The notes: generated by a model from the sequence alone, not told the origin. DNA of 49,495 bases from Bacteroidota bacterium (GCA_023251555.1 JAHEYN010000003.1:107014-156508); one strand, 5' to 3'; shown: positions 5,689-30,476, counted from the first letter of the stretch. Made by a program: numbers and translations.

Positions 5689-6039
5689 ATGGGAATAATT
5701 TCAGCAGAAGGAATCCGTATCTATGCATACCACGGGTGTATGGAGGAAGAAGCAAAAACAGGCAGAGCCTTTATAGTGGATGTTTCGGTAGAAACAGACC
5801 TTGAAAAGGCTGCCGCATCGGATGCGATCGCAGACACCATTGACTATGTGAAGCTGTACGAAATCGTGAAATCGGAGATGGCCGTTCGCTCAAAGCTTAT
5901 AGAACATGCAGGGCAGCGGATCATTAATAGTATCCGTAAAAAGTTTCCGCAGGCGAAAGGTGTCAGGGTTAAGGTTAGTAAGCTTAATCCCCCGGTAAAC
6001 GGGAATCTTGAAAGCGTGAGTGTGCTGATGGAAGGCTGA
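5689..6039 (+). CDS. folB: Dihydroneopterin aldolase
   Basis: 116 aa, usual length. In folate synthesis it converts dihydroneopterin to 6-hydroxymethyl-dihydropterin and glycolaldehyde. Family marks are the N-terminal AEGIRIYAYHGCMEEE stretch, the pterin-contact segment DTIDYVKLYEIV, the conserved Glu in KLIEHAGQRI, and VRVKVSKLNPPVNG, which holds the catalytic Lys of the family. The ATG lies 2 bp after the gltX stop, so translation is probably coupled. The rimP promoter follows in the next gap. Confidence 0.95.
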   Translation: MGIISAEGIRIYAYHGCMEEEAKTGRAFIVDVSVETDLEKAAASDAIADTIDYVKLYEIVKSEMAVRSKLIEHAGQRIINSIRKKFPQAKGVRVKVSKLNPPVNGNLESVSVLMEG

Positions 6040-6065
6040 GAGAGGATTAAGAAAACGCTGCTATT

Positions 6066-6095
6066 TTGTTTTCTCGATCTCAATTAGTACTTTTG
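6066..6095 (+). promoter_or_regulatory. Promoter of the rimP-nusA-infB operon (TTG-N19-TACTTTTG)
   Basis: TTG at 6066-6068 and TACTTTTG at 6088-6095 have a 19-bp spacer. This places the transcript start near 6102, giving a leader of about 47 nt that holds the hairpin at 6122-6142. Confidence 0.65.
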
Positions 6096-6121
6096 CAGGC
6101 ATAAATATTATTTATAAGGAT

Positions 6122-6142
6122 GAGGGGACACGCAGTCCCCTC
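6122..6142 (+). promoter_or_regulatory. Perfect 8-bp hairpin in the rimP leader
   Basis: GAGGGGAC (6122-6129) pairs perfectly with GTCCCCTC (6135-6142) around a 5-nt ACGCA loop. It ends 6 nt before the rimP start and no U tract follows (TGTTATTTG), so it is not a standard terminator. It could affect rimP initiation, bind a protein or protect the 5' end. Confidence 0.6.
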
Positions 6143-6148
6143 TGTTAT

Positions 6149-6649
6149 TTGACAAGGATACCAGTGCAACAGATCAGCGACATTAGTGTTTTACGTGTAC
6201 CTGCCGAGGATAAAATCCATTCAATGGGAGGATTTCTCGTGGATATTAAAGTATTGCCCCGGAAGAAAATCATCATTCATTTTGATAAACTCCAGGGTGG
6301 TGTTGAGGTGGGTGACTGCATTGAAATCAGCCGTTATATCAATGTGCAATTTGAGAATTCAGGGCTTTGGGAGCAATACGAACTGGAGGTTTCTTCGCCC
6401 GGGCTGGATCAGCCGTTCAGAGTTGTGCAGCAATACCATAAAGCCGTGGGAAAAGAAATAAGGATTATCGCCACTGACGGGCAGGCGGTATCCGGGAAGC
6501 TCATCTCTGCAGGAGAAGAAGGCATTGAGATACTTGAAAATATCCCCGGCAGAAAAAACAGGCAGCAGGCAGAAGAAGAAAGCCGGAAAGAATTTTTCCC
6601 CTACAGCGGTATCAAAGAGGCAAAATGTATCATATCATTCAGAAATTAA
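6149..6649 (+). CDS. rimP: Ribosome maturation factor RimP
   Basis: 166 aa from a TTG start. RimP is a cytoplasmic factor for 30S subunit maturation. Family features seen are GGFLVDIKVL, the acidic GVEVGDCIEISRYI segment, the hallmark YELEVSSPGLDQPF, and a C-terminal SH3-like part (KEIRIIATDGQAVSGKLISA). No upstream ATG is in frame, so TTG 6149, just past the leader hairpin, is the likely start. A shorter form from the ATG inside SMGGFLVD would lose the first strand of the N domain. nusA begins 10 bp after the stop. Position at the head of rimP-nusA-infB is the common bacterial order. Confidence 0.92.
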   Translation: MTRIPVQQISDISVLRVPAEDKIHSMGGFLVDIKVLPRKKIIIHFDKLQGGVEVGDCIEISRYINVQFENSGLWEQYELEVSSPGLDQPFRVVQQYHKAVGKEIRIIATDGQAVSGKLISAGEEGIEILENIPGRKNRQQAEEESRKEFFPYSGIKEAKCIISFRN

Positions 6650-6659
6650 ATTCAAAACC

Positions 6660-7895
6660 ATGGACAACACAGCACTTATTGAATCATTTGCAGAGTTTAA
6701 GGACCTGAAAAACATTGACAGGGCTACCATGATGAACATTCTTGAAGATGTTTTCAAAGGCCTGCTCCGCAAGAAATACGAGTCGGCAGACAACTTCGAC
6801 ATCATCATCAACATTGACAAGGGCGATCTCGAGGCATGGAGAAACCGGGTAATCGTGGAAGATGATAAAATAGAAGATCCCGCCACCCAGATAGCATACT
6901 CCGAAGCCATCAAGATCGAACCCGATTTCCAGATTGGCGAAGAAGTATCGGAAGAGGTCAGGTTTTCTGACTTTGGCCGCAGGGCAGTGCTTTCAGCCCG
7001 CCAGAACCTTGTTGCCAAAGTCCTCGAACTCCAGAAAAACGATATTTTTAAAAAATACAAAGACCGCGTGGGTGAAATCATCGCAGGAGAAGTTTACCAG
7101 ATGTGGAAAAAAGAAACCCTTATTATTGATGACGAAGGCAATGAGTTGATTCTCCCTAAGATAGAGCAGATTCCTTCAGACTTTTTCAAGAAGGGAGATA
7201 CTGTAAGGGCGGTGGTTCTCAGGGTTGAAATGATTAATGGCAACCCCAAAATAACATTGTCCCGCACCTCGCCTCTTTTCCTTGAACGCCTCTTTGCGCA
7301 GGAAGTTCCGGAGGTATATGACGGGCTGATTACTATCAAGAATATTGTCCGCGAACCGGGGGAGAGAGCGAAGGTAGCAGTGGAATCCTATGATGATCGC
7401 ATTGACCCTGTGGGTGCATGCGTGGGAATGAAAGGCTCCAGGATACACGGAATCGTGCGCGAACTCCGGAATGAAAACATTGATGTTATCAATTATACGA
7501 CCAACACTTCTCTTTATATAACGCGCGCGCTGAGCCCCGCCAAGATCGTTTCTATTAAGCTTGATGAAGAGAATAAGAGGGCCTCTGTTTTTCTTAAGCC
7601 CGATCAGGTCTCCCTTGCCATCGGGAAGGGCGGGCATAACATCCGGCTTGCCGGTAAACTCACGGGTTATGAGATAGATGTATACAGGGATGTGGAAGAA
7701 GAAGCCGAAGATGTGGACCTTGATGAATTTGCAGATGAGATTGACGAGTGGATTATTGACGAGTTTAAGTCCATTGGCTGCGATACCGCCAGAAGTGTTC
7801 TTGATCTCAGTATCGAAGAACTCGTAAAACGCACTGACCTCGAAGAGGAAACAGTCAAAGAAGTGATACGTATCCTCAAGGCGGAATTCGAATAA
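6660..7895 (+). CDS. nusA: Transcription termination/antitermination factor NusA
   Basis: 411 aa. NusA binds RNA polymerase and nascent RNA to control pausing and termination. From the N terminus: the polymerase-binding NusA_N domain (residues 1 to about 125), an S1 domain (about 130-205), and two KH domains, with GMKGSRIHGIVREL and SLAIGKGGHNIRLAGKLTG carrying GxxG loops. A short acidic C-terminal helical domain ends VKEVIRILKAEFE. The start is ATG 6660 (MDNTALIESFAEFK), in the usual position 10 bp after rimP. The frame is open further upstream, but that part overlaps rimP and is unlike NusA. There is no second acidic repeat as in E. coli, usual for this phylum. Confidence 0.96.
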   Translation: MDNTALIESFAEFKDLKNIDRATMMNILEDVFKGLLRKKYESADNFDIIINIDKGDLEAWRNRVIVEDDKIEDPATQIAYSEAIKIEPDFQIGEEVSEEVRFSDFGRRAVLSARQNLVAKVLELQKNDIFKKYKDRVGEIIAGEVYQMWKKETLIIDDEGNELILPKIEQIPSDFFKKGDTVRAVVLRVEMINGNPKITLSRTSPLFLERLFAQEVPEVYDGLITIKNIVREPGERAKVAVESYDDRIDPVGACVGMKGSRIHGIVRELRNENIDVINYTTNTSLYITRALSPAKIVSIKLDEENKRASVFLKPDQVSLAIGKGGHNIRLAGKLTGYEIDVYRDVEEEAEDVDLDEFADEIDEWIIDEFKSIGCDTARSVLDLSIEELVKRTDLEEETVKEVIRILKAEFE

Positions 7896-7944: not shown

Positions 7945-10635
7945 ATGTCAGAAGAAAAAAACATAAGGCTCAGTAAAATAGCCCGGGAGTTAAATATCGG
8001 TATCCATACCATCACCGATTTTCTTGCATCCAAAGGGAATAAGATAGATCATAATCCCAATACGAAGATTGGTGACGATCTTTACCGTCTTCTTCTGAAG
8101 GAATTCCAGCCTGATAAGTTTGCCAAGGAAGAGTCCCAGATGGTGGCAAAAAGTGCTGCTGTTAAGAAGGATAGCATTGTCCTTGAAGCCCAGCCGGATC
8201 TCAATAAGGTGCCCGGCAGGAAGGATAGTGAGCAGGATGAGATCCTGATTAAAAATATCGGTGCACATCCTTTTTCAGGAACACCGGAAGACGGCCCCCG
8301 GGAAGAGGTGATCAAAGCCAAAGCGGATAAGCTTGAAGGATTGAAGGTGGTTGGAAGTATCAATGTTGAACCTCCTGTCACCAAGGGAAAAAAGGGTGCT
8401 TCGAAAAAAACCGCGCCTCCCGTCCCGGAAGAAACGCCCCCGGCTTCTCCTGCGCCACCTTCTGAAAATCTTCCCCCTCAGGAAGAGGAACCCTTTCGCC
8501 TTGAGCGGGAAAAACTGCAGGGCCCTGTTATTGTCGGCAAAATGGATCTTCCATCCGAGCCGCCCAAGCGGAAACCTGTGGCTTCTTCCTCCGGTGTTGA
8601 CAGGGATCAGTCGGGCCGGAAAAAGAAACGGAAACGGAAAGAACGCCCTGTTAATTCCGGTTACTCTCAGGGTGAGCGCGGGCTCAGAGAAAAAGGACAT
8701 GAAAAAAATCCGGCCCGTGAAGAGGTCAGTGATAAGGAGATACAGGACCAGATTAAAGCAACACTTGCAAAACTCAGCGGACCCGGCAAATCCAGGAGCG
8801 CAAAATACCGCAGGCAGAAAAGGGATGAAGCCAGCCAGGTTGCACAGGAGGCTGTGGCAGAACAGGAAGCGCAAAAGAATATTTTAAAAGTTACGGAGTT
8901 TGTGTCGGCAAGTGAACTGGCAAAAATGATGAACCTGCCCGTTAATGATATTATCTCAAGCTGCCTGAGCCTGGGACTTTTCGTTTCAATCAACCAGCGC
9001 CTCGACGCTGAAACCATCTCCGTGGTGGCTGAAGAGTTCGGTCATAAGGTTGAATTTGTAACCGCAGACATACAGGAAGATACCGCTGAAGAAGATGAAG
9101 ACAACGGGAATCCGGAAGATATGGTTCCAAGGCCTCCTATCGTTACGGTGATGGGACATGTGGATCATGGGAAAACATCTCTCCTCGACTATATCAGGAA
9201 AGCCAATGTGATAGCGGGAGAGGCTGGCGGAATCACACAGCACATAGGGGCATACGAGGTGACCCTTGAGAACAATAAACAGATTACCTTTCTTGATACT
9301 CCTGGTCACGAAGCATTCACCGCCATGCGCGCCAGGGGTGCTAAAATAACGGATGTTGCGATTATTGTCGTTGCTGCGGACGACAGCGTTATGCCACAGA
9401 CAGTAGAGGCGATTAACCATGCCCAGGCTGCAGGAGTGCCGCTGATTTTTGCCATCAATAAGATAGACAAGCCCGGTGCTAACGCGGAAAAGATACGTGA
9501 ACAGCTTTCCAAGATGAATATCCTGGTGGAGGAGTGGGGCGGCAAATACCAGTGCCAGGAAATCTCTGCCAAGAAAGGGGAAAAGATTGACCTTCTCCTC
9601 GAAAAAGTATTGCTGGAGTCTGACCTGCTTGAACTAAAAGCCAATCCGAAAGGTCCGGCGAAAGGCACCGTGATAGAATCTTCTCTTGATAAAGGAAGGG
9701 GATATATCATGACAGTGCTTGTTCAGTCTGGCACCCTCAGGCTGGGGGATATTGTCCTTGCGGGAAGCTACAGCGGCCGTGTGAAAGCACTGTTCAATGA
9801 AAGAGGCAACAAGGCAGAAGAAGCAGGGCCCGCCACACCCGTGCTTGTGCTCGGAATGGACGGGGCCCCTCAGGCAGGAGACACTTTTAAAGTCATGTAC
9901 GATGAACGAAAAGCCAGGGATATCGCCAACAGGCGCATGCAGCTTATCCGCGAACAGGGCATACGCACCCATAAGCATATTACGCTTGAAGAAGTCGGCA
10001 GAAGGCTTGCAATCGGCAATTTTAAAGAGCTGAACATTATTGTGAAAGGCGACGTGGACGGCTCTGTTGAGGCATTGTCTGATGCCCTCCTTAAACTCTC
10101 CACTTCAGAGATCCAGGTGAATGTCATACATAAGTCGGTAGGACAGATAAGCGAATCTGATGTGCTGCTCGCTTCCGCTTCTAATGCCGTAATCGTGGGC
10201 TTCCAGGTGAGACCTTCACTGAATGCAAGAAAAATTGCCGAGCAGGAACAGATTGATATCCGCCTTTATTCCATTATCTATGATGCCATCAATGAAGTGA
10301 AAATGGCTATGGAGGGAATGCTGACCCCAGAATTCCAGGAAAAAATTGTCTGCAACATTGAAGTACGTGAAGTGTTTAAAATCACGAAGGTGGGAACCAT
10401 TGCCGGCTGTATGGTGAAAGACGGGAAAATAACACGCCAGACGAAGGTCCGCGTGATCCGCGATGGCATTGTGGTTTATACCGGAGAACTCTCTTCCCTG
10501 AAACGCTTTAAGGATGATGTGAAAGAAGTGGCGTCAGGCTATGAATGTGGCTTGGGGATTAATAACTTCAATGATATGAAAGTGGGGGATATCGTGGAAG
10601 GATACGAGCAGGTTGCTGTGAAACGGACTATCTGA
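7945..10635 (+). CDS. infB: Translation initiation factor IF-2
   Basis: 896 aa. IF-2 is the GTPase that delivers initiator tRNA to the 30S subunit. It begins with an IF2_N helix ([21 protein letters not shown]), then about 300 residues of low-complexity Lys/Glu/Pro-rich linker, then a second IF2_N-like segment ([20 protein letters not shown]). The G domain follows from residue about 395: G1 [10 protein letters not shown]3 DTPGHEAF, G4 NKID. Domains II, III and the C-terminal fMet-tRNA-binding domain are complete. It is the third gene of the operon, 49 bp after nusA, and is convergent with the SPOR gene. Confidence 0.97.
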
Positions 10636-19414: not shown

Positions 19415-19555
19415 ACATTTAACTAATCAGGAATTGTAGAAATTATATTTTAAAAGTGGTTAAAAAATTAAAAATTTAAAAAAATTACAAAATTTATAAA
19501 TTTCTCGATACATAAATTTTTTCAAAAAATAATTTTATCTTGAATCTCAATAGAA

Positions 19556-19563
19556 TATTTTTG
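19556..19563 (+). promoter_or_regulatory. -7 box (TATTTTTG) of the beta-propeller protein gene
   Basis: It matches TAnnTTTG, 33 bp before ATG 19597, within an AT-rich tract. A second match (TATTTTTG, 19327-19334) lies upstream of repeat copy A. No well-spaced -33 TTG is seen for either. Confidence 0.4.
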
Positions 19564-19596
19564 ACGAAATCAACATCTGAAAAAAATATTTCTGCC

Positions 19597-22500
19597 ATGA
19601 AAACAGTATACAAACCTTCCTGCCGCAAGACGCAAAGATGGATTAAAAATTCGTTTGCCACCCTGTTGCTCTGTGCCATTATCTCCGTGGCCAGCGTGCT
19701 TTTTGCAGGAGAGCCCGTCTTTTTCACGCGCGGGGAAGGCAACTTATTATTTGTTGAAAACAAAGGGCAGGTGGCAGACGCCAACGGGCAGTTGAGGCCT
19801 GATATTTTATTTTCCGGCAGATCGGGGGCTATGCAGATTTTTCTCCGGAAAGGAGGGTTAAGCTATGTGCTGGCCGATTTCAGTAGTACTGAAGAAGATG
19901 AGGATGATGAGAAAAGCGAAGTAAAATCAATGGGCGCTCATGTCCCACAGGTAAAAACCGGCAAAGTGGACATTGAGTTCGAAGGATCGGATCCCTTAGC
20001 AAACGTAAAGGCAGAGCAGCCGGACGATGGTATCTGCAATTACTATCTCCCCCAGTGCCCGGGAGGCGTGATTTCTTCGAAGGCATACGGGCGTGTTTCC
20101 TATGCCGGCCTGTACCCGGGAATTGATGTGAGTTTTTACAGCATACAGAAAGAAAGCTTTGAGTACGATTTCATTGTCGGGCCGGGAGCGGACCCCCTGA
20201 AAATCCGGATGAAATACAGTGGTGCGAACCAGTTAACCCTTTCCGGGGGCAGGCTGAAAATGATTACCTCAGCCGGGGAGATAGAAGAGGTAATTCCGTC
20301 TGCATATCAGGTCATAGCCGGGGAGAAGCGTGCGGTTACAGCGTTTTATGAGCTTGAGGGCAATACCGTTAGTATAAAAACGGGAGATTATGTCACTTCC
20401 TTTCCTCTTGTCATTGACCCTTTTACTACCTGGAGTACTTACTATGGAGGCAGCAGCAACTGGGATTTGTCATACGCCACTGCTGCAGACCCTTCCGGGA
20501 ATATATTCATCACCGGATGGACATATTCCACGAATTTTCCGGTTCTTACTACTGCCGGTGGCTATAATCAAACCGTCAATGCGGGCATACTTGGGAGTTC
20601 CAATTCTTTTGTGGTGAAATTCAACAGCGCGGGCACCCGGCAGTGGGCTACCTATTACGGCGGAAGTCTCAATACCCAGGCATATGGGGCGGCAGCCGAT
20701 GCTTCAGGGAATGTCATTATCACTGGTTCCACTTCTGCCAATGACATGCCAATTTATAACCAGTCTGCGAACTGGGCAGGAACCACTGCGAATGCTACTG
20801 GTGTGGGATCCGTTTCATGGTCAGGGACAGTCACCAACGCCCAGGGTGCAAACAACAGTGCCTTTGCTTCAACAGGCAACATGGCACTATCAAATGTTTC
20901 CAACTATTTAAAGGCAACCAACTTCGGTTTTTTGCTTCCTGCCTCTGCGGTTGTTTGCGGCGTAGGAGTTATGTTTTACTGGAAGTCGAGCAGTGCTACG
21001 CTTCCCATTTATGACAACGAAGTGGATCTCGTGGTTGGAGGCGTGGTTCAGGCGTCGAGCAACAAAGCAACGGGCAGCAACCTTATCCCGTCTTCGGCTT
21101 CCCTCAAGACATACGGGGGGGGTGCCGACCTTTGGGGTCTGAGCCTTACCAAGACCGATGTGGAGAATGCAGGTTTCGGAGTAGCACTTTCGGTAAAGAG
21201 GGCCACTTCCGGCACATCGGGCAATGCAACTGCCTCCGTCGATGCAGTTTCAATAACAGTTTTTTATACGCTCCCCGGCAACCCCGCTGTTTTCCAGGCC
21301 GGCTATGCAGGAAACGGGGATGCATTTGTGCTGAAGCTTGATGGTGCAGGTGCACGCCAGTGGGCCACGTATTACGGGGGTTCTGATGCAGACCAGGGAA
21401 GCGAAGTATCTGCAGACCCGGCCGGTAATATATTTCTCACGGGCATCACTTATTCCACGAACTTTCCGGTCTTGTCTGCTTTCCAGTCAGGTAATGCAGG
21501 TACGGGATATGATGACGCCTTCCTCGTGAAATTTGACAGCGGCGGTAACAGACTGTGGGCAACCTATTTTGGTGGCAATGACGACGACAGGGGGCTTGGC
21601 GTTGCAGCTGACCCTTCCGGTAATGTCTTTATAACGGGGCAGACCCGTTCCACCAATCTGCCGGTGCTCGGAGGAACACAGATGAGCAACGCCAGTGCAG
21701 GTGGAAATGATGTGTTTCTTGCCAAATTCAGCGGTGCCGGAGCACGCATATGGGCGACTTATTACGGGGGCAGCACGGGCGATGATTATGGGTTCGGGGT
21801 GGCGACTGATGTTTCCGGGAATGTGGCGATTACGGGCAGGACATACTCCAATGACTTCCCGGTACTCGCTGCATATCAGACGACTTTTGCAGGCGTTTAT
21901 GATGCCTTTGCAGCGAGGTTCAACGCTTCAGGTACACCGCAATGGTCCACTTATTACGGGGGAAGCGACGATGAAAACACAGAAGGCGGAAGCATTGCCA
22001 TAGACCAGGCAACTGGTAATGTATTCATCTCGGGAGGAACCTACAGTGCGGATTTTCCTGTTACCGTTGCCACAGCCTGCCAGACTGCGCTTGGCCCGCC
22101 CGAAGACCAGTTCCTTGTGTCGTTTGACCCGGCGGGGAATCGCCTCTGCGCCACTTATGTGGGAGGCGGCAGCCATGACGAAGAAGCCGACGGGGGGCTT
22201 GCCATCTCCGGCTCCTATGCTTACCTGACAGGTTATTCCATGGGATCCTTTCCCACTACCGCAGGGGCTTTCCAGACAGCCTTTGCAGGAGGATTCTATG
22301 ATGCCTTTGCAGCCCAGATTCCTACCAATTGCGCCTGCTCTGTAGTACTTGGAACAGACCTTTTGTCTTTTGAGGGAGAGAACAAAGGAGCAGACAACCT
22401 GCTTCATTGGATCACCGCCTCAGAGGTAAATACTGATTATTTTGAAATAGAACGCAGCTACGGGGGAGATGACTTTGACCCCGTCGGAAAAGTTAAAGCG

Positions 22501-22893
22501 GCCGGGAGCAGCAGCATGAAACAATACTACTCTTTCCTGGACGGACACATACAAAACAGTGCTGCATACCGCTTAAGGCAGGTTGGGTATAATGGGACGT
22601 ATACTTACTCAAATACAATTGTAATTTCTGTTAGCCGGGGAGTGCTGCCTGCCACCCTTTCTCCCAACCCTGTGAACGGAATCATAGAATGTACATTTTA
22701 TACTGAAGATATTTCCCCTGCGGAGATTATGGTGATGGATATCACAGGCAACACTCTGGTAGCGGAAGAAAAGAAAATTGTGCGGGGGAAAAATATTTTC
22801 CGGGCGGACCTCAGCAGGCTTGCAGGGGGGATGTATTTCATCAGTATCCGCTCTGGCAGCCGCCAGGAACAGCTTAAGTTTGTGAAGGAGTGA
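19597..22893 (+). CDS. T9SS-secreted SBBP beta-propeller protein with DUF7948-type N domain
   Basis: 1098 aa from ATG 19597; a TTG at 19540 is in frame but lies at the promoter. A signal peptide (SFATLLLCAIISVASVLFAG) is followed by a DUF7948-like domain (LLFVENKGQVADANGQ to FPLVIDP). Next come seven SBBP-type blades (DPSGNIFITGWTYSTNFPV pattern, with WATYYGG strands). A domain of about 170 residues (388-560) is inserted in the second blade. A linker (LHWITASEVNTDYFEIERS) precedes a type A T9SS sorting domain (LSPNPVNG to QEQLKFVKE). It is probably exported through the outer membrane and cell-attached or released. Ligand unknown. Its 3' end overlaps the GT2 gene by 20 bp. Confidence 0.88.
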   Translation: MKTVYKPSCRKTQRWIKNSFATLLLCAIISVASVLFAGEPVFFTRGEGNLLFVENKGQVADANGQLRPDILFSGRSGAMQIFLRKGGLSYVLADFSSTEEDEDDEKSEVKSMGAHVPQVKTGKVDIEFEGSDPLANVKAEQPDDGICNYYLPQCPGGVISSKAYGRVSYAGLYPGIDVSFYSIQKESFEYDFIVGPGADPLKIRMKYSGANQLTLSGGRLKMITSAGEIEEVIPSAYQVIAGEKRAVTAFYELEGNTVSIKTGDYVTSFPLVIDPFTTWSTYYGGSSNWDLSYATAADPSGNIFITGWTYSTNFPVLTTAGGYNQTVNAGILGSSNSFVVKFNSAGTRQWATYYGGSLNTQAYGAAADASGNVIITGSTSANDMPIYNQSANWAGTTANATGVGSVSWSGTVTNAQGANNSAFASTGNMALSNVSNYLKATNFGFLLPASAVVCGVGVMFYWKSSSATLPIYDNEVDLVVGGVVQASSNKATGSNLIPSSASLKTYGGGADLWGLSLTKTDVENAGFGVALSVKRATSGTSGNATASVDAVSITVFYTLPGNPAVFQAGYAGNGDAFVLKLDGAGARQWATYYGGSDADQGSEVSADPAGNIFLTGITYSTNFPVLSAFQSGNAGTGYDDAFLVKFDSGGNRLWATYFGGNDDDRGLGVAADPSGNVFITGQTRSTNLPVLGGTQMSNASAGGNDVFLAKFSGAGARIWATYYGGSTGDDYGFGVATDVSGNVAITGRTYSNDFPVLAAYQTTFAGVYDAFAARFNASGTPQWSTYYGGSDDENTEGGSIAIDQATGNVFISGGTYSADFPVTVATACQTALGPPEDQFLVSFDPAGNRLCATYVGGGSHDEEADGGLAISGSYAYLTGYSMGSFPTTAGAFQTAFAGGFYDAFAAQIPTNCACSVVLGTDLLSFEGENKGADNLLHWITASEVNTDYFEIERSYGGDDFDPVGKVKAAGSSSMKQYYSFLDGHIQNSAAYRLRQVGYNGTYTYSNTIVISVSRGVLPATLSPNPVNGIIECTFYTEDISPAEIMVMDITGNTLVAEEKKIVRGKNIFRADLSRLAGGMYFISIRSGSRQEQLKFVKE

Positions 22894-23869
22894 TCCCATC
22901 CCGTTCATGATCTGCCGCCAGGCCGGGGGCATCTTCAAAATTAATGCTCTCCTTTTCCACCACGAGAGGGCGTTTCAGTACCTGGGTATGAATGGAACCT
23001 ATGTACTCCCCGATAATCCCGATAAAGAAGAGCTGGACTGCTGAGAAAAAGAATAACCCGATTACAAGCGGGGCAAGGCCCACCGTAAAGCTATCCCAGA
23101 AAATAAGTTTATAAATAAAGTATACAGATGCAACCAGCAGGCTGAGAATAGCCATCAGGAACCCAATCATGGCCGCAAGCCTCAGAGGTATCTTCGAGTG
23201 GTTGGTTATGCCGAGCATGGCAATATCATAAAGTGTAAAAAAATTATTTTTTGAAACTCCTTTTTTCCGCTTCGGCTGTATATATTTCACCTGTGCAATC
23301 TCAAAACCTATGTCACATATCAATCCCCTGAAATAAGGATAGGGATCGTCAATCCGGCGCAGAATCTCTATGACTTTTTTATCGTACAGTCCGAATCCTG
23401 TGAAATTTTTGATCAAAGGGGTATCGGAGAGTTTTGCAATTAAATTATAATATGCCTTCCTGATAAGAAAAGGCAGGCGGGATTCCTCACTTTCACTTTT
23501 CACCCCGATGACAACTTTGTAACCTTCTTCCCATTTATTGATGAAGTCCACGATCAGGGATGGAGGATCCTGGAGGTCCGCCACAATATGAATTACCGCA
23601 TCCCCGCTGGTTTTCATCAGGGCATAATGGGGAGAACGGATATGACCGAAGTTCCTCGTATTGATAATGACCTTAACATGCCTGTCCTGCGAGGCAATCT
23701 GTTTAAGTATAGCCGCGGTATTGTCTGTGGAAGCATTATCGATAAACAGATGCTCATAGTCATACTGCGGCAGGTGTGTAAGCACCTCTTTTACCTGCCT
23801 GTACAGCTCCCCTATATTTTCTTCTTCATTGTAACATGGAGTCACAATGCTTATCTTTTTACCAGGCAT
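22874..23869 (-). CDS. GT2 glycosyltransferase, polyprenyl-phosphate sugar transferase type
   Basis: 331 aa from ATG 23869; a TTG two codons earlier is possible. The N-terminal GT-A fold has SIVTPCYNEEENI and the metal-binding-type motif HIVADLQDPP, then NFTGFGLYDKKVI, the pattern of the DPM1/GtrB/ArnC-like group that loads a sugar on a polyprenyl phosphate at the inner face of the membrane. Two C-terminal membrane helices (MIGFLMAILSLLVASVYFIY; PLVIGLFFFSAVQLFFIGII) anchor it. It is last in the aldolase-SDR-cyclase cassette, 31 bp after the cyclase, so its donor may be derived from that pathway (inference). Confidence 0.9.
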   Translation of the reverse strand: MPGKKISIVTPCYNEEENIGELYRQVKEVLTHLPQYDYEHLFIDNASTDNTAAILKQIASQDRHVKVIINTRNFGHIRSPHYALMKTSGDAVIHIVADLQDPPSLIVDFINKWEEGYKVVIGVKSESEESRLPFLIRKAYYNLIAKLSDTPLIKNFTGFGLYDKKVIEILRRIDDPYPYFRGLICDIGFEIAQVKYIQPKRKKGVSKNNFFTLYDIAMLGITNHSKIPLRLAAMIGFLMAILSLLVASVYFIYKLIFWDSFTVGLAPLVIGLFFFSAVQLFFIGIIGEYIGSIHTQVLKRPLVVEKESINFEDAPGLAADHERDGITPSQT

Positions 23870-23900
23870 GGACAATAGTTTTACAGCTCAATGTTAGCAA

Positions 23901-24983
23901 TTATTTTTTTACTTCCAGGTCCTTGTATTCTTTCAGGAATCCATTCAATGTTGATTGTGCCTGTGAATGGGAAAGATTCACGGTTTTGTGCATGTGGTAG
24001 TTATCATCTGTCATGATGAGCGCAAGATTCCCGGTTTCTCTTTTCTTGTCTTTTTCCATGGCCGCCATAATCTTTGGAACAGATAAAGACAGTATCTCCC
24101 GCTTATTCACCTTCAGTATGGCCCGGAGCAAAAGCATGTTAAAAGAATTATCCCTGAGCAGGCCGTACTTTACCGCATCCCTGCCGGCGAGCATCATCCC
24201 CAGCACAACAGCCTGTCCGTGCGGGATCCTGAACCCGCTTGCGGCTTCAATGGCATGGCCATAACAATGACCGAAGTTGAGCATATTGCGCTTTCCCCTG
24301 TCAAACTCGTCTCCTGAGATAAAAGATTTTTTTATACGAAGGGAACGGGAAATATGCTTTTCAAGTGTTGCGGGATCGCGCTTATCAAGCATGGAAAGAT
24401 CTGCATAAAGTTCCGCAGCATATTTTTTTCCTCCCATGATTGCCAGCTTGGCAACCTCGCCCATCCCGCTGTAATAATCCTGGACAGAGAGTGTTCCTGT
24501 TAATCCAGGGCAGATTAATATTTTATCGGGAGGATAAAATGTGCCCAGGAGATTTTTATAGGTCTTATAATTCAGGGACGTTTTGCTCCCCATACAGCTG
24601 TCGGCCTGGGCCAGCAGGGTGGTGGGGATATAGAACCATTTTATTCCGCGGAAGATGGTGGATGCCGCAAATCCTGTGACATCCTGGGTAATGCCTCCCC
24701 CTATGCTTACAAGGACAGAATTTTTTTTCACCCCGCGTCTCATGACTTCATCGTATATTCGGTTCACCGAGTCCAGGTTTTTCATTTTCTCACTGATTTT
24801 CAGCAGGACGGGATTATCTTTCGCAGTAAGCCCGAGCGCACTCCCGTGTAAATCAAAAACCCTGGCATCGGCAACACAGATTGTGCCGGGAGTATTCCTG
24901 AGCAGGTCTTTTATTTCCCTTAAAGAAGAAAAGCAGATGGAATAATTCTTTATACCTGATCTGATATGCAGTTCGTCTGCCAT
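23901..24983 (-). CDS. 3-dehydroquinate synthase-like sugar-phosphate cyclase
   Basis: 360 aa. The NAD site is SIGGGITQDVTGFAAST and the metal/phosphate region IPTTLLAQADSCMGSKTSLN. Candidate metal ligands are Glu in GMGEVAKL and His in LNFGHCYGHAIE and IPHGQAVVLGM. The late DKK of the family is present (MEKDKKRETG). Differences from housekeeping AroB include SCMGSKTSLN for the usual S-VGGKTGIN and GEVAKLAI for AEVIK-G. That fits a secondary-metabolite or surface-polysaccharide paralogue (DOIS/EEVS/AHBA-type superfamily); the substrate cannot be read from sequence. The ATG lies just after the SDR stop. If no other aroB exists in the genome it could still be the shikimate enzyme. Confidence 0.82.
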   Translation of the reverse strand: MADELHIRSGIKNYSICFSSLREIKDLLRNTPGTICVADARVFDLHGSALGLTAKDNPVLLKISEKMKNLDSVNRIYDEVMRRGVKKNSVLVSIGGGITQDVTGFAASTIFRGIKWFYIPTTLLAQADSCMGSKTSLNYKTYKNLLGTFYPPDKILICPGLTGTLSVQDYYSGMGEVAKLAIMGGKKYAAELYADLSMLDKRDPATLEKHISRSLRIKKSFISGDEFDRGKRNMLNFGHCYGHAIEAASGFRIPHGQAVVLGMMLAGRDAVKYGLLRDNSFNMLLLRAILKVNKREILSLSVPKIMAAMEKDKKRETGNLALIMTDDNYHMHKTVNLSHSQAQSTLNGFLKEYKDLEVKK

Positions 24984-24984
24984 C

Positions 24985-25680
24985 TTAAACAGAGATGTAG
25001 CCCCCGTCAATGAAGACCGTCTGCCCGGTGATATAGGTATTGGAGGGTGAAGAAAGGAACCACACCAGTTCGGCAATTTCACGGGGTTCTGCCAGCCGGC
25101 CTAGGGGTATCTGCGTCCTGATCGCTTCCAGTTCAGCGGGGGAATTATTACGGACGGTGAGATCAGTATTGGTATAGCCCGGGGCAACGGCATTTACGAG
25201 TATGTTATGGGGAGCAAGTTCCACGGCCGCGGAGCGCGTCATCGCGTTGATGCCGGCCTTGGCAGCAGAATAAATAATCCTGTTATTTTTTGCCGCCGCA
25301 CTCCATATTGAGCTGATGTTGACTATTTTTCCGGACTTATTTTTTTTCATTTGCCCTGCCACCGCCTGCATCAGCATCAGAGGTGCAAGGAGATTGACCT
25401 GGACTGTGGCGTCAATCTCGGCATCGGTAAGCGACTCCAGTCCTGCAACGGGATTGATGCCGGCATTGTTTACAAGTATATGCACAGGGTAGGTGAGGCG
25501 TGCTGTGAACGCACGGATGGAGGCAGGATTGGACAAATCAAGATCTTCCCGGCGCGGGGCGATCACATGTATGCCCTTCTCTGCAAAAAGACTGCATATG
25601 GCCTTGCCTATACCCTTTGATCCGCCGGTAACGAGGGCATTCAGTGTTTGAGAATCAGTATTTGCCACCGGCTTTTTCAA
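24985..25680 (-). CDS. Short-chain dehydrogenase/reductase (FabG-like)
   Basis: 231 aa. Classical SDR: cofactor loop VTGGSKGIGKAI, NNAG at about residue 88, catalytic Ser in NISSIW, YSAAKAG (Tyr/Lys), and the C-terminal ITGQTVFIDGGY. After the first strand the sequence HVIAPRRED has a basic residue pair, as in NADP(H) enzymes. Start appears to be TTG 25680, overlapping the end of the aldolase gene by 26 bp; GTG 25668 is the alternative. Tight packing between aldolase and cyclase suggests it oxidizes or reduces their intermediate. Confidence 0.88.
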   Translation of the reverse strand: MKKPVANTDSQTLNALVTGGSKGIGKAICSLFAEKGIHVIAPRREDLDLSNPASIRAFTARLTYPVHILVNNAGINPVAGLESLTDAEIDATVQVNLLAPLMLMQAVAGQMKKNKSGKIVNISSIWSAAAKNNRIIYSAAKAGINAMTRSAAVELAPHNILVNAVAPGYTNTDLTVRNNSPAELEAIRTQIPLGRLAEPREIAELVWFLSSPSNTYITGQTVFIDGGYISV

Positions 25681-26473
25681 TTAGTTTGTCGTATCGTTCC
25701 TGGAGCATGTTGATACGTGCTTCGTCTTCCTTATAGATCATGCCGTAAAAATTACGCTTGTTCTTGAGCCACATCAGCTCAAAGCCTACGGCTTTTAGAA
25801 TGCCGTTTCCGGCTTTGTTTTTCATGGCTTCGGGGGCATTGAAAAGTACCTTTCTTGTTTCGTACTTATCCAGTAATCCGGCAGGAATTTTTTCAAAGAA
25901 AGGCAGTGAAGCGGCCGAAACACCTCCTCCAATCACACATTCCATAAAAGGGTTGAAGGCTTTTGCCGAAGTCATTACTTTTTTACAGGTTTCAAAAACG
26001 GGCTCCGAGTTGATATCTTCCCTCGACATATCCATGGAGCCGGTCAGGTCCACCCTCCCGAGCACTATGCCCTTTAACTCCTTTATGTTCGGAAGCGCCA
26101 GCATGGCATCAAAATTTTTAACCGCGGTAATGGTTTCAATGTTAATGAGGAAATCCACCTCACTGCGCTCATCCGGGGGAAAGGCCAGACTGGCTGACGC
26201 AAGAAATTTTTTCAGGGCATACGGGGTTTCTATCATCGGCCCCACGATCCTGGTTACTCCAATGGAGCGGGAGTCGTAGATATCCTTGAGCGCTTCGCAT
26301 CCTCCTATCTTAATGGTAAGATCAAGACCGGCTTTTGTAACTACCTCTTTGAGGCGGAGAGCTTCTTCCATGCGGGTTCCTTCGGCCTCAAACTCTGCTT
26401 TGATGCCTGTGGCAGCGTGGTTCTCTTTCAGGTCCTCGAGTACCCCGACCATCTGTTTTTCGATGCTGTTCAA
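25655..26473 (-). CDS. HpcH/HpaI aldolase / citrate lyase beta-like protein
   Basis: 272 aa from TTG 26473, or 265 aa from ATG 26452. TIM-barrel features of the HpcH/CitE superfamily are seen: LTIKIGGCEAL, VGPMIETPYALKKFL, FLINIETITAVKNFDAML (metal-binding Glu), and LKGIVLGRVDLTGSM (metal/substrate Asp region). The family cleaves or forms C-C bonds using pyruvate or acetyl-CoA-type enolates. As first gene of a cassette with an SDR and a DHQ-synthase-like cyclase, it may build a 2-keto-3-deoxy acid that is then cyclized (inference). It is divergent from rseP. Confidence 0.82.
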   Translation of the reverse strand: MNSIEKQMVGVLEDLKENHAATGIKAEFEAEGTRMEEALRLKEVVTKAGLDLTIKIGGCEALKDIYDSRSIGVTRIVGPMIETPYALKKFLASASLAFPPDERSEVDFLINIETITAVKNFDAMLALPNIKELKGIVLGRVDLTGSMDMSREDINSEPVFETCKKVMTSAKAFNPFMECVIGGGVSAASLPFFEKIPAGLLDKYETRKVLFNAPEAMKNKAGNGILKAVGFELMWLKNKRNFYGMIYKEDEARINMLQERYDKLIEKAGGKY

Positions 26474-28931: not shown

Positions 28932-30476
28932 ATGGCAACTTACAGTATAAAAAATATTCTGTCCGGTTTAGGAATTGATCCCCTTTCTGCCGGCGCCTGT
29001 ACGGGAACAAAGTGGCTGCGCACTTCCGGTGATGTCAATACCTCCTGTTCCCCTGCCGATGGAAAAGCTATCGGGAAAATACGGCTTGCCTCCGGTGCCG
29101 ACTACGAAAAAGTTATGGCAGCGGCACAGGGAGCCTTTGAACAATGGAGAATGGTGCCGGCCCCCCGGCGCGGAGAGATTGTCCGCCAAATAGGAAACAT
29201 GCTGAGGAAGTATAAAGAACCGCTGGGCATGCTCGTCTCCATGGAGATGGGTAAAATATACCAGGAAGGCCTCGGAGAGGTCCAGGAGATGATTGACATC
29301 TGCGACTTTGCCGTGGGGCAGTCACGCCAGCTCTATGGATTTACTATGCACTCCGAACGTCCGGGGCACAGAATGTATGAACAGTACCACCCCCTCGGAG
29401 TGGTTGGAGTGATCTCCGCCTTTAATTTTCCCGTGGCGGTGTGGGCATGGAATGCCATGCTGGCATTGATTTGTGGGAATACCGTAATATGGAAGCCCTC
29501 TTCAAAAACGATGCTTTGCGCAGTGGCGGTTCATAAGATCATTGCCGGGGTATTAAAAGAAAATAATCTGCCGGAAGGCGTTCTGAACCTTGTTGCGGGA
29601 AGTTCGGGGGATGCCGGGGAGAAGCTTCTGCGTGACAGGCGCGTTCCCCTCATCTCAGCCACCGGATCTACCCGCATGGGCAGGCACGTTGCGCAGGTGG
29701 TGGGAGAGCGCCTGGGCCGCACCCTGCTTGAACTCGGCGGAAACAACGCCGTTATCATTACAAAAAATGCCGACCCGGAACTTGCTTTGAGAGCTGTTCT
29801 CTTTGGAGCCGTGGGTACCTGCGGGCAGCGATGCACCTCTACACGCCGGCTGATTATCCACAAGGATGTTTACGAAACATTCAGACAGCAGCTCGTTAAA
29901 GCATATGCCCAGATAAGAACAGGTCACCCCCTTGACACCAGAACGCTTGTGGGTCCTATGATTGACAAAGAAGCTGTTGCGGGATTTCTCTCCGCCATCA
30001 GGGCAATAAAAAAAGAAGGAGGCCACATCCTGTACGGAGGAAGCGTACTTAGTGGTAAAGGTTATGAGTCGGGATGTTATGTCGTTCCCTGTATTGCAGA
30101 AGCAGAAAATCATCTTAAAATTGTGCAGGAAGAAACATTTGCCCCTATCCTCTACCTCATGAAGTATGGAACTATAGAAGAGGCTATTTCCATGCAGAAT
30201 GCCGTGCCACAAGGTCTTTCCTCCTCTATTTTCTCCGCTGACCTGGCTGAAACGGAAAGATTTCTCTCCCAGGCAGGTTCCGACTGCGGCATTGCAAACG
30301 TGAACATAGGCACTTCCGGTGCCGAAATAGGAGGAGCCTTCGGGGGCGAAAAAGATACAGGAGGAGGAAGAGAATCCGGGTCCGACTCATGGAAAGCATA
30401 CATGAGAAGGCAAACAAACACGATCAATTACACTTCCGAGCTTCCGCTTGCACAGGGGATTTCATTTGATGTTTAG
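28932..30476 (+). CDS. ALDH7-type aldehyde dehydrogenase (aminoadipate-semialdehyde type)
   Basis: 514 aa. Strong likeness to the ALDH7A1/antiquitin group: FNFPVAVWAWN, LLELGGNNAVII with the general-base Glu, the nucleophile Cys in TCGQRCTSTRR, and the long signature GTSGAEIGGAFGGEK followed by TGGGRESGSDSWK. The C terminus ends LPLAQGISFDV, as in that family. These NAD-dependent enzymes oxidize alpha-aminoadipate semialdehyde in lysine breakdown, or betaine aldehyde. No other lysine-pathway gene is nearby, so the substrate is inferred from family only. It lies 5 bp after the unknown exported protein and overlaps the lipoprotein gene by 8 bp. Confidence 0.92.
   Translation: MATYSIKNILSGLGIDPLSAGACTGTKWLRTSGDVNTSCSPADGKAIGKIRLASGADYEKVMAAAQGAFEQWRMVPAPRRGEIVRQIGNMLRKYKEPLGMLVSMEMGKIYQEGLGEVQEMIDICDFAVGQSRQLYGFTMHSERPGHRMYEQYHPLGVVGVISAFNFPVAVWAWNAMLALICGNTVIWKPSSKTMLCAVAVHKIIAGVLKENNLPEGVLNLVAGSSGDAGEKLLRDRRVPLISATGSTRMGRHVAQVVGERLGRTLLELGGNNAVIITKNADPELALRAVLFGAVGTCGQRCTSTRRLIIHKDVYETFRQQLVKAYAQIRTGHPLDTRTLVGPMIDKEAVAGFLSAIRAIKKEGGHILYGGSVLSGKGYESGCYVVPCIAEAENHLKIVQEETFAPILYLMKYGTIEEAISMQNAVPQGLSSSIFSADLAETERFLSQAGSDCGIANVNIGTSGAEIGGAFGGEKDTGGGRESGSDSWKAYMRRQTNTINYTSELPLAQGISFDV

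Follow-up and report, generated by a model that had tools for sequence, protein, structure and literature searches.

What does an AroB-like enzyme do between a dehydrogenase and a glycosyltransferase? The question is raised by a stretch of 49,495 nucleotides from a Bacteroidota bacterium (GCA_023251555.1, JAHEYN010000003.1:107014-156508; hereafter the window), which carries at 22874-26473, on the minus strand, a cassette of four genes encoding an aldolase-like protein (ALD), a short-chain dehydrogenase/reductase (SDR), a relative of the 3-dehydroquinate (DHQ) synthase AroB (CYC) and a glycosyltransferase (GT2). Our answer is that the cassette probably builds the donor acid for a YerE-type carboligase, a thiamine diphosphate (ThDP) enzyme encoded elsewhere in the genome, whichever way the question of ring closure by CYC is settled. 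A more specific reading, which we favour with somewhat less than even confidence, is that the pathway is of the YerE/ErwE type and leads to a higher-carbon, caryophyllose-like surface sugar branched at C4, the cassette being the arm that builds the donor.

The cassette and its carboligase partner

The four open reading frames (ORFs) are real genes and not chance ORFs. ALD (25655-26473, 272 aa) has a TTG start that agrees with its homologues and matches PF03328 weakly (E 2e-8; 34.2 bits against a gathering cut-off of 25), and SDR (24985-25680, 231 aa) matches PF13561 (E 2e-46). CYC (23901-24983), an AroB-like sugar-phosphate lyase/cyclase of the TIGR04425 type, matches PF01761 (E 1e-32) and PF24621 (E 1e-31); alignment with homologues corrected its start to the ATG at 24983, giving 360 aa. 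GT2 (22874-23869), whose corrected start is probably the ATG at 23869, is a polyprenyl-phosphate glycosyltransferase of the GtrB/ArnC/PgfS type (PF00535, E 2e-24; PgfS model, 192 bits). The ALD and SDR genes overlap, 1 nt separates the SDR stop codon (24987-24985) from the CYC start, and the spacing between CYC and GT2 is about 25-31 nt. The domain matches and the spacing bear out the first-pass annotation of the window, which had described four tightly packed genes for an aldolase, an SDR, an AroB-like protein and a family 2 glycosyltransferase.

ALD is predicted to be a class II, pyruvate-type aldolase of the HpcH/HpaI type. In a Foldseek comparison with the PDB, its AlphaFold model (pLDDT 92) comes closest to 7et9, an HpaI pyruvate aldolase (E 3e-7), and the motifs NIET and GRVD are invariant in the family alignment (A1); their E and D resemble the metal-binding residues of HpaI. 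ALD thus has the fold and the two metal-ligand-type motifs of the HpaI/HpcH/YfaU aldolases, but its identity to them is 11-14% in the structural alignment; it forms a subfamily of its own, which no NCBIfam model matches. A role of this family as keto-acid aldolases fits the context of a relative (39% identical) on an Ilyobacter polytropus plasmid (L118, 14001-14774), which lies in a catabolic-looking operon with an aconitase and a 2-hydroxyacid dehydrogenase.

In a sample of 395 genomes of the same phylum, in which TIGR04425-type proteins were called at >360 bits and the carboligase at E ≤ 1e-120, TIGR04425-type proteins were sporadic (11 genomes). In the 60 nearest relatives no match to CYC rose above the level expected of an ordinary AroB, and this scattered occurrence is as expected for horizontal spread. 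ALD, SDR and CYC were found together in nine other loci from several phyla: L003 (Wirthbacteria), L004 (Alphaproteobacteria), L005, L006 (Syntrophobacterales), and the same-phylum L060, L063, L064, L067 and L069. In most of the related loci SDR stands beside the AroB-like gene, and in the Bacteroidota-type ones it always does; its homologues in aldolase-linked loci are 42-58% identical. L006 (299-3662) carries two tandem aldolase copies ahead of SDR and the AroB-like gene, as well as a NUDIX gene that is common to carboligase clusters. The neighbours shared by the related loci are RfbF, RfbG, RfbH, NAD-dependent reductases and a ThDP enzyme roughly 600 aa long; several of these loci also hold a GtrA flippase together with a GT2 that shares 55-58% identity with that of the window (six carboligase clusters have such a copy). 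The set recurs in distant genomes, where its clusters also contain glycosyltransferases, GtrA flippases and genes of the O-unit type, which supports the glycan setting proposed in the first-pass annotation. A search of plasmids returned solely an AroB-like match from Streptococcus suis and aldolase paralogues outside such clusters, and in E. coli no match was found.

The closest solved relative of the ThDP enzyme is 8rph, titled "thiamine pyrophosphate-binding protein", probably the YerE-like JanthE. RfbF, RfbG and RfbH convert CDP-glucose into CDP-3,6-dideoxy-4-keto-glucose. The carboligase was present in 13 of the 395 genomes, and these 13 include all seven genomes with a CYC of the type that accompanies it (group A, see below; hypergeometric p 6e-12) and all eight with a strong ALD match (p 9e-14), most cases being linked clusters and so not all independent. 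The genes of the cassette are physically linked to the carboligase in at least 10 related loci and are unlinked to it in the window's own genome. This genome carries RfbF, RfbG, RfbH and a YerE-like carboligase on other contigs: carboligase, reductase and RfbH stand side by side on contig C39 (L075), and RfbF and RfbG are on C49 (L072). The clade in which this carboligase is placed (support 100/99) otherwise consists of those from L003, L004, L005, L063 and L067, all of them linked to CYC. The four genes were at first taken as a complete set, which is not supported, as a YerE-type carboligase and CDP-sugar enzymes from outside the window are needed.

Exchanges of genes between related clusters

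Two clusters (L091 and L092) have the same core, with one haloacid dehalogenase (HAD) phosphatase gene replacing SDR and CYC between the carboligase and ALD. Since the carboligases of L091 and L060 are 86% identical and the former nests beside the latter in the tree, this is a real swap; a reductase for the side-chain ketone is retained in both versions. The place of ALD is taken in L007 and L008 by an HMGL-like aldolase and in L068 by an enzyme of the NeuB family. Among the carboligase clusters without ALD and CYC, L109 holds a NeuB-cupin fusion (8754-10340) with a HAD gene and also a radical SAM gene, L108 a NeuB-cupin fusion (6032-7570) with a gene judged HAD-like by eye only, L110 (a small contig) a NeuB gene, and L111 a DmpG aldolase with an acetaldehyde dehydrogenase, a pair producing 4-hydroxy-2-oxovalerate. 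Every complete carboligase cluster read encodes an enzyme able to make a 4-hydroxy-2-oxo acid and, where this acid is likely to be phosphorylated, also a phosphatase or SDR plus CYC. A metallo-beta-lactamase-fold (RNase Z-like) protein is conserved inside the sugar clusters (L060 3326-4093, L064 8426-9172 and L091 13979-14731).

ErwE does not use pyruvate and prefers 4-hydroxy-2-oxo acids, which it adds to CDP-4-keto-3,6-dideoxyglucose, and MMAR_2332, the carboligase for caryophyllose, has a donor preference like that of ErwE; predicted YerE-like carboligases number over 200, with mostly unknown products (PMC12247030). As 4-hydroxy-2-oxo acids are products of pyruvate aldolases, the donor chemistry links the cassette to the carboligase. 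Taken together, the co-occurrence of the partners, the exchanges and the donor chemistry indicate that the most likely product of the cassette is a 2-keto acid, edited to serve as donor for a caryophyllose-type branched sugar. The clusters suggest a rule in which an aldol enzyme (HpcH/HpaI, HMGL-like or NeuB) is followed by phosphate handling (HAD, or SDR plus the AroB-like protein), and such a rule would let the donor acid, and hence the sugar, be predicted from the genes.

CYC and the question of ring closure

The best profile match of CYC is TIGR04425 ("AroB-related putative sugar phosphate phospholyase (cyclizing)"), with 367.6 bits over the whole length, although this is below the curated cut-off of 400; the next best model gives 252. 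That value is the score with the aroB model TIGR01357, which CYC fails (cut-off 305). TIGR04425 has a curated name, and no assigned pathway was found for it in the literature search; the present reading would give this orphan family a pathway and a testable reaction. In our loci it divides into group A, with the carboligase, and group B, without it (L061, L062, L065 and L066). Group B has His at the K197 position of DHQ synthase, and its neighbours are SDR, a GmhA-like isomerase, IolG-like and PGDH-like dehydrogenases, and CMP-transferase-like and YhcH-like genes; it probably represents a second, different AroB-like glycan pathway.

All the catalytic and substrate-binding residues of DHQ synthase that were checked are kept in CYC: R130, D146, K152, N162, E194, K197, K250, R264, N268, H271, H275, H287 and K356, in Aspergillus nidulans numbering. 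The altered motifs mentioned in the first-pass annotation do exist, HGE being HGQ and one Gly-type position before a conserved Asp being Gln, but they spare every catalytic residue checked. The closest solved folds to the AlphaFold model of CYC are DHQ synthases and not sedoheptulose or glucose cyclases. Profile scores agree in order, with up to 251 bits for DHQ synthases, 183 for 2-deoxy-scyllo-inosose (DOI) synthase and 144 for ValA, so that by this measure CYC is not closer to the 2-epi-5-epi-valiolone or 2-deoxy-scyllo-inosose synthases than to DHQ synthase. The fold and active site favour a keto-acid phosphate as substrate, with which the retention of K250 and R264 also fits.

With an AroB fold and a complete active site, CYC might be thought a second aroB paralogue among unrelated neighbours. 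This is very improbable, because a separate canonical aroB (352 aa) lies on another contig of the genome, the TIGR04425 score of CYC is far above its aroB score, and its neighbours are co-conserved across phyla. The same 352-aa gene rules out CYC as the sole aroB, and CYC is not needed for the shikimate pathway. The first-pass annotation would have been refuted by a sole aroB whose neighbours are not co-conserved in relatives, and this is not the situation observed. CYC also differs from AroB in being 27% identical to the one of its own genome, in its HGQ and Gln substitutions and in that genes of its type always lie here in carbohydrate clusters. The earlier idea that a keto-deoxy sugar acid is handled by a pyruvate-type aldolase, a redox enzyme and a member of the AroB superfamily, apart from aromatic synthesis, is supported.

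The intact active site, the DHQ synthases as closest folds and the pyruvate aldolase close by would all suit a route in which ALD makes an acid like 3-deoxy-D-arabino-heptulosonate 7-phosphate (DAHP), CYC converts this by ring closure, before any carboligation, into a carbocyclic acid resembling dehydroquinate, and SDR gives a quinate-like unit that is put on a glycan, the ThDP enzyme using pyruvate for a separate yersiniose-type sugar. We consider this unlikely: in the sampled phylum ALD and group-A CYC are confined to carboligase genomes, the phosphatase exchange occurs next to a near-identical carboligase, and no gene was seen for activating such an acid for transfer. Slightly less likely still is that CYC acts after carboligation, on the CDP-sugar that now bears a phosphorylated acyl chain at C4, and closes this chain onto the side-chain ketone by DHQ-type chemistry, with SDR reducing the ring ketone to give a hexose with a cyclitol branch. 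The carboligase product would retain the DAHP pattern, with the sugar replacing the carboxylate, the phosphatase could likewise act after carboligation, and the active site of CYC is intact. However, the carboxylate-site residues K250 and R264 are conserved, CYC clusters still have the reductase for the side-chain ketone although closure would consume that ketone, and we know of no sugar of this kind.

Ring closure by CYC is unproven and disfavoured. This type of carboligase needs a free 2-keto acid, which a DHQ-type closure would consume, and 86% identical carboligases serve in the phosphatase and CYC clusters, both with the side-chain ketone reductase. For the same reasons the carbocycle that the first-pass annotation had envisaged as end product is not supported. 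Caryose, considered as a ring product, was discarded, its oxygen pattern being at odds with a DHQ-type closure.

From the genes, their families, co-occurrence and exchanges, and the conserved residues, the following reactions, substrates and products can be proposed for the donor-building arm. ALD would join pyruvate to a sugar-aldehyde phosphate, for which erythrose 4-phosphate is the best fit, giving a phosphorylated 3-deoxy-2-keto acid. CYC would carry out the first part of the DHQ-synthase cycle (oxidation, phosphate elimination and re-reduction), and the enol would be protonated without ring closure to leave a terminal methyl ketone; alternatively, this step might precede ALD and act on the aldehyde phosphate. 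SDR would reduce the resulting ketone, and the product would be an acid that resembles 3,7-dideoxyheptulosonate and still has its 2-keto group. The YerE-like enzyme would then decarboxylate this acid and add the acyl unit to C4 of the CDP-3,6-dideoxy-4-keto-glucose supplied by RfbF, RfbG and RfbH, an epimerase-type reductase would reduce the new side-chain ketone, and GT2 would transfer the sugar to polyprenyl phosphate. That CYC eliminates phosphate without closing a ring, converting a heptulosonate phosphate into the terminal deoxy form for the carboligase, is put forward tentatively. If true, it would give a non-cyclising member to a superfamily regarded as cyclases, and a second use of the DHQ-synthase reaction, a chemistry new for the family.

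Several points weigh against this route. The intact DHQ-synthase active site would by itself favour ring closure, and the enol of DHQ synthase closes readily, so that its avoidance would need a special feature. The chain length of the donor is a guess. The pathway parts of the window's genome are spread over three contigs, and the genome of L006, a metagenome-assembled one, has the cassette but no carboligase. Finally, a GT2 71% identical to that of the window stands outside such a cluster in another genome (G399), which makes the assignment of GT2 weaker than those of the other three proteins; its membership of the pathway is probable, not certain.

Relation to known branched sugars

Caryophyllose is 3,6-dideoxy-4-C-(D-altro-1,3,4,5-tetrahydroxyhexyl)-D-xylo-hexopyranose, and positions 2' and 6' of its branch carry no oxygen, exactly as the proposed route predicts (PMC5706390). 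This branch corresponds to a decarboxylated 3,7-dideoxyheptulosonate, that is, pyruvate plus a tetrose whose terminal CH2O-phosphate has become CH3, and a phosphate elimination of the DHQ-synthase type followed by reduction of the ketone by SDR would yield exactly its end. From Fischer projections we infer that the branch would differ from DAHP as its C4 epimer, and a dedicated aldolase would then make sense. A non-cyclising CYC could accordingly account for the terminal methyl group of caryophyllose-type sugars and so supply a step missing from their formation, a suggestion we hold with less than even confidence.

The pathways to erwiniose, caryophyllose and yersiniose (ErwE, MMAR_2332 and YerE; PMC12247030) share with the related clusters RfbF, RfbG, RfbH, a YerE-like carboligase and a side-chain reductase; the same parts are scattered in the window's genome, together with an aldolase able to supply a hydroxy-2-keto acid donor. 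The difference lies in the pair of SDR and AroB-like protein in the donor arm, which was not found described for any of these three pathways in the accessible literature. In the parts searched of the literature on Mycobacterium marinum lipooligosaccharides, no AroB-like gene is described. A link to bradyrhizose, a C10 bicyclic sugar with a candidate 11-gene cluster (PMC4743980), was also considered and set aside, as neither an AroB-like gene nor one for an aldolase is named in that text.

Outside the cassette, positions 19540-22893 of the window encode a large protein that combines an SBBP beta-propeller, DUF7948 and a type IX secretion (T9SS) sorting domain, the last of which suggests that the phylum is Bacteroidota; its gene is convergent with that of GT2 and overlaps its end. 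At 28932-30476, adjoining a gene for an RseP-type protease, lies an aldehyde dehydrogenase gene that scores 810 bits against a cut-off of 730 for L-piperidine-6-carboxylate dehydrogenase.

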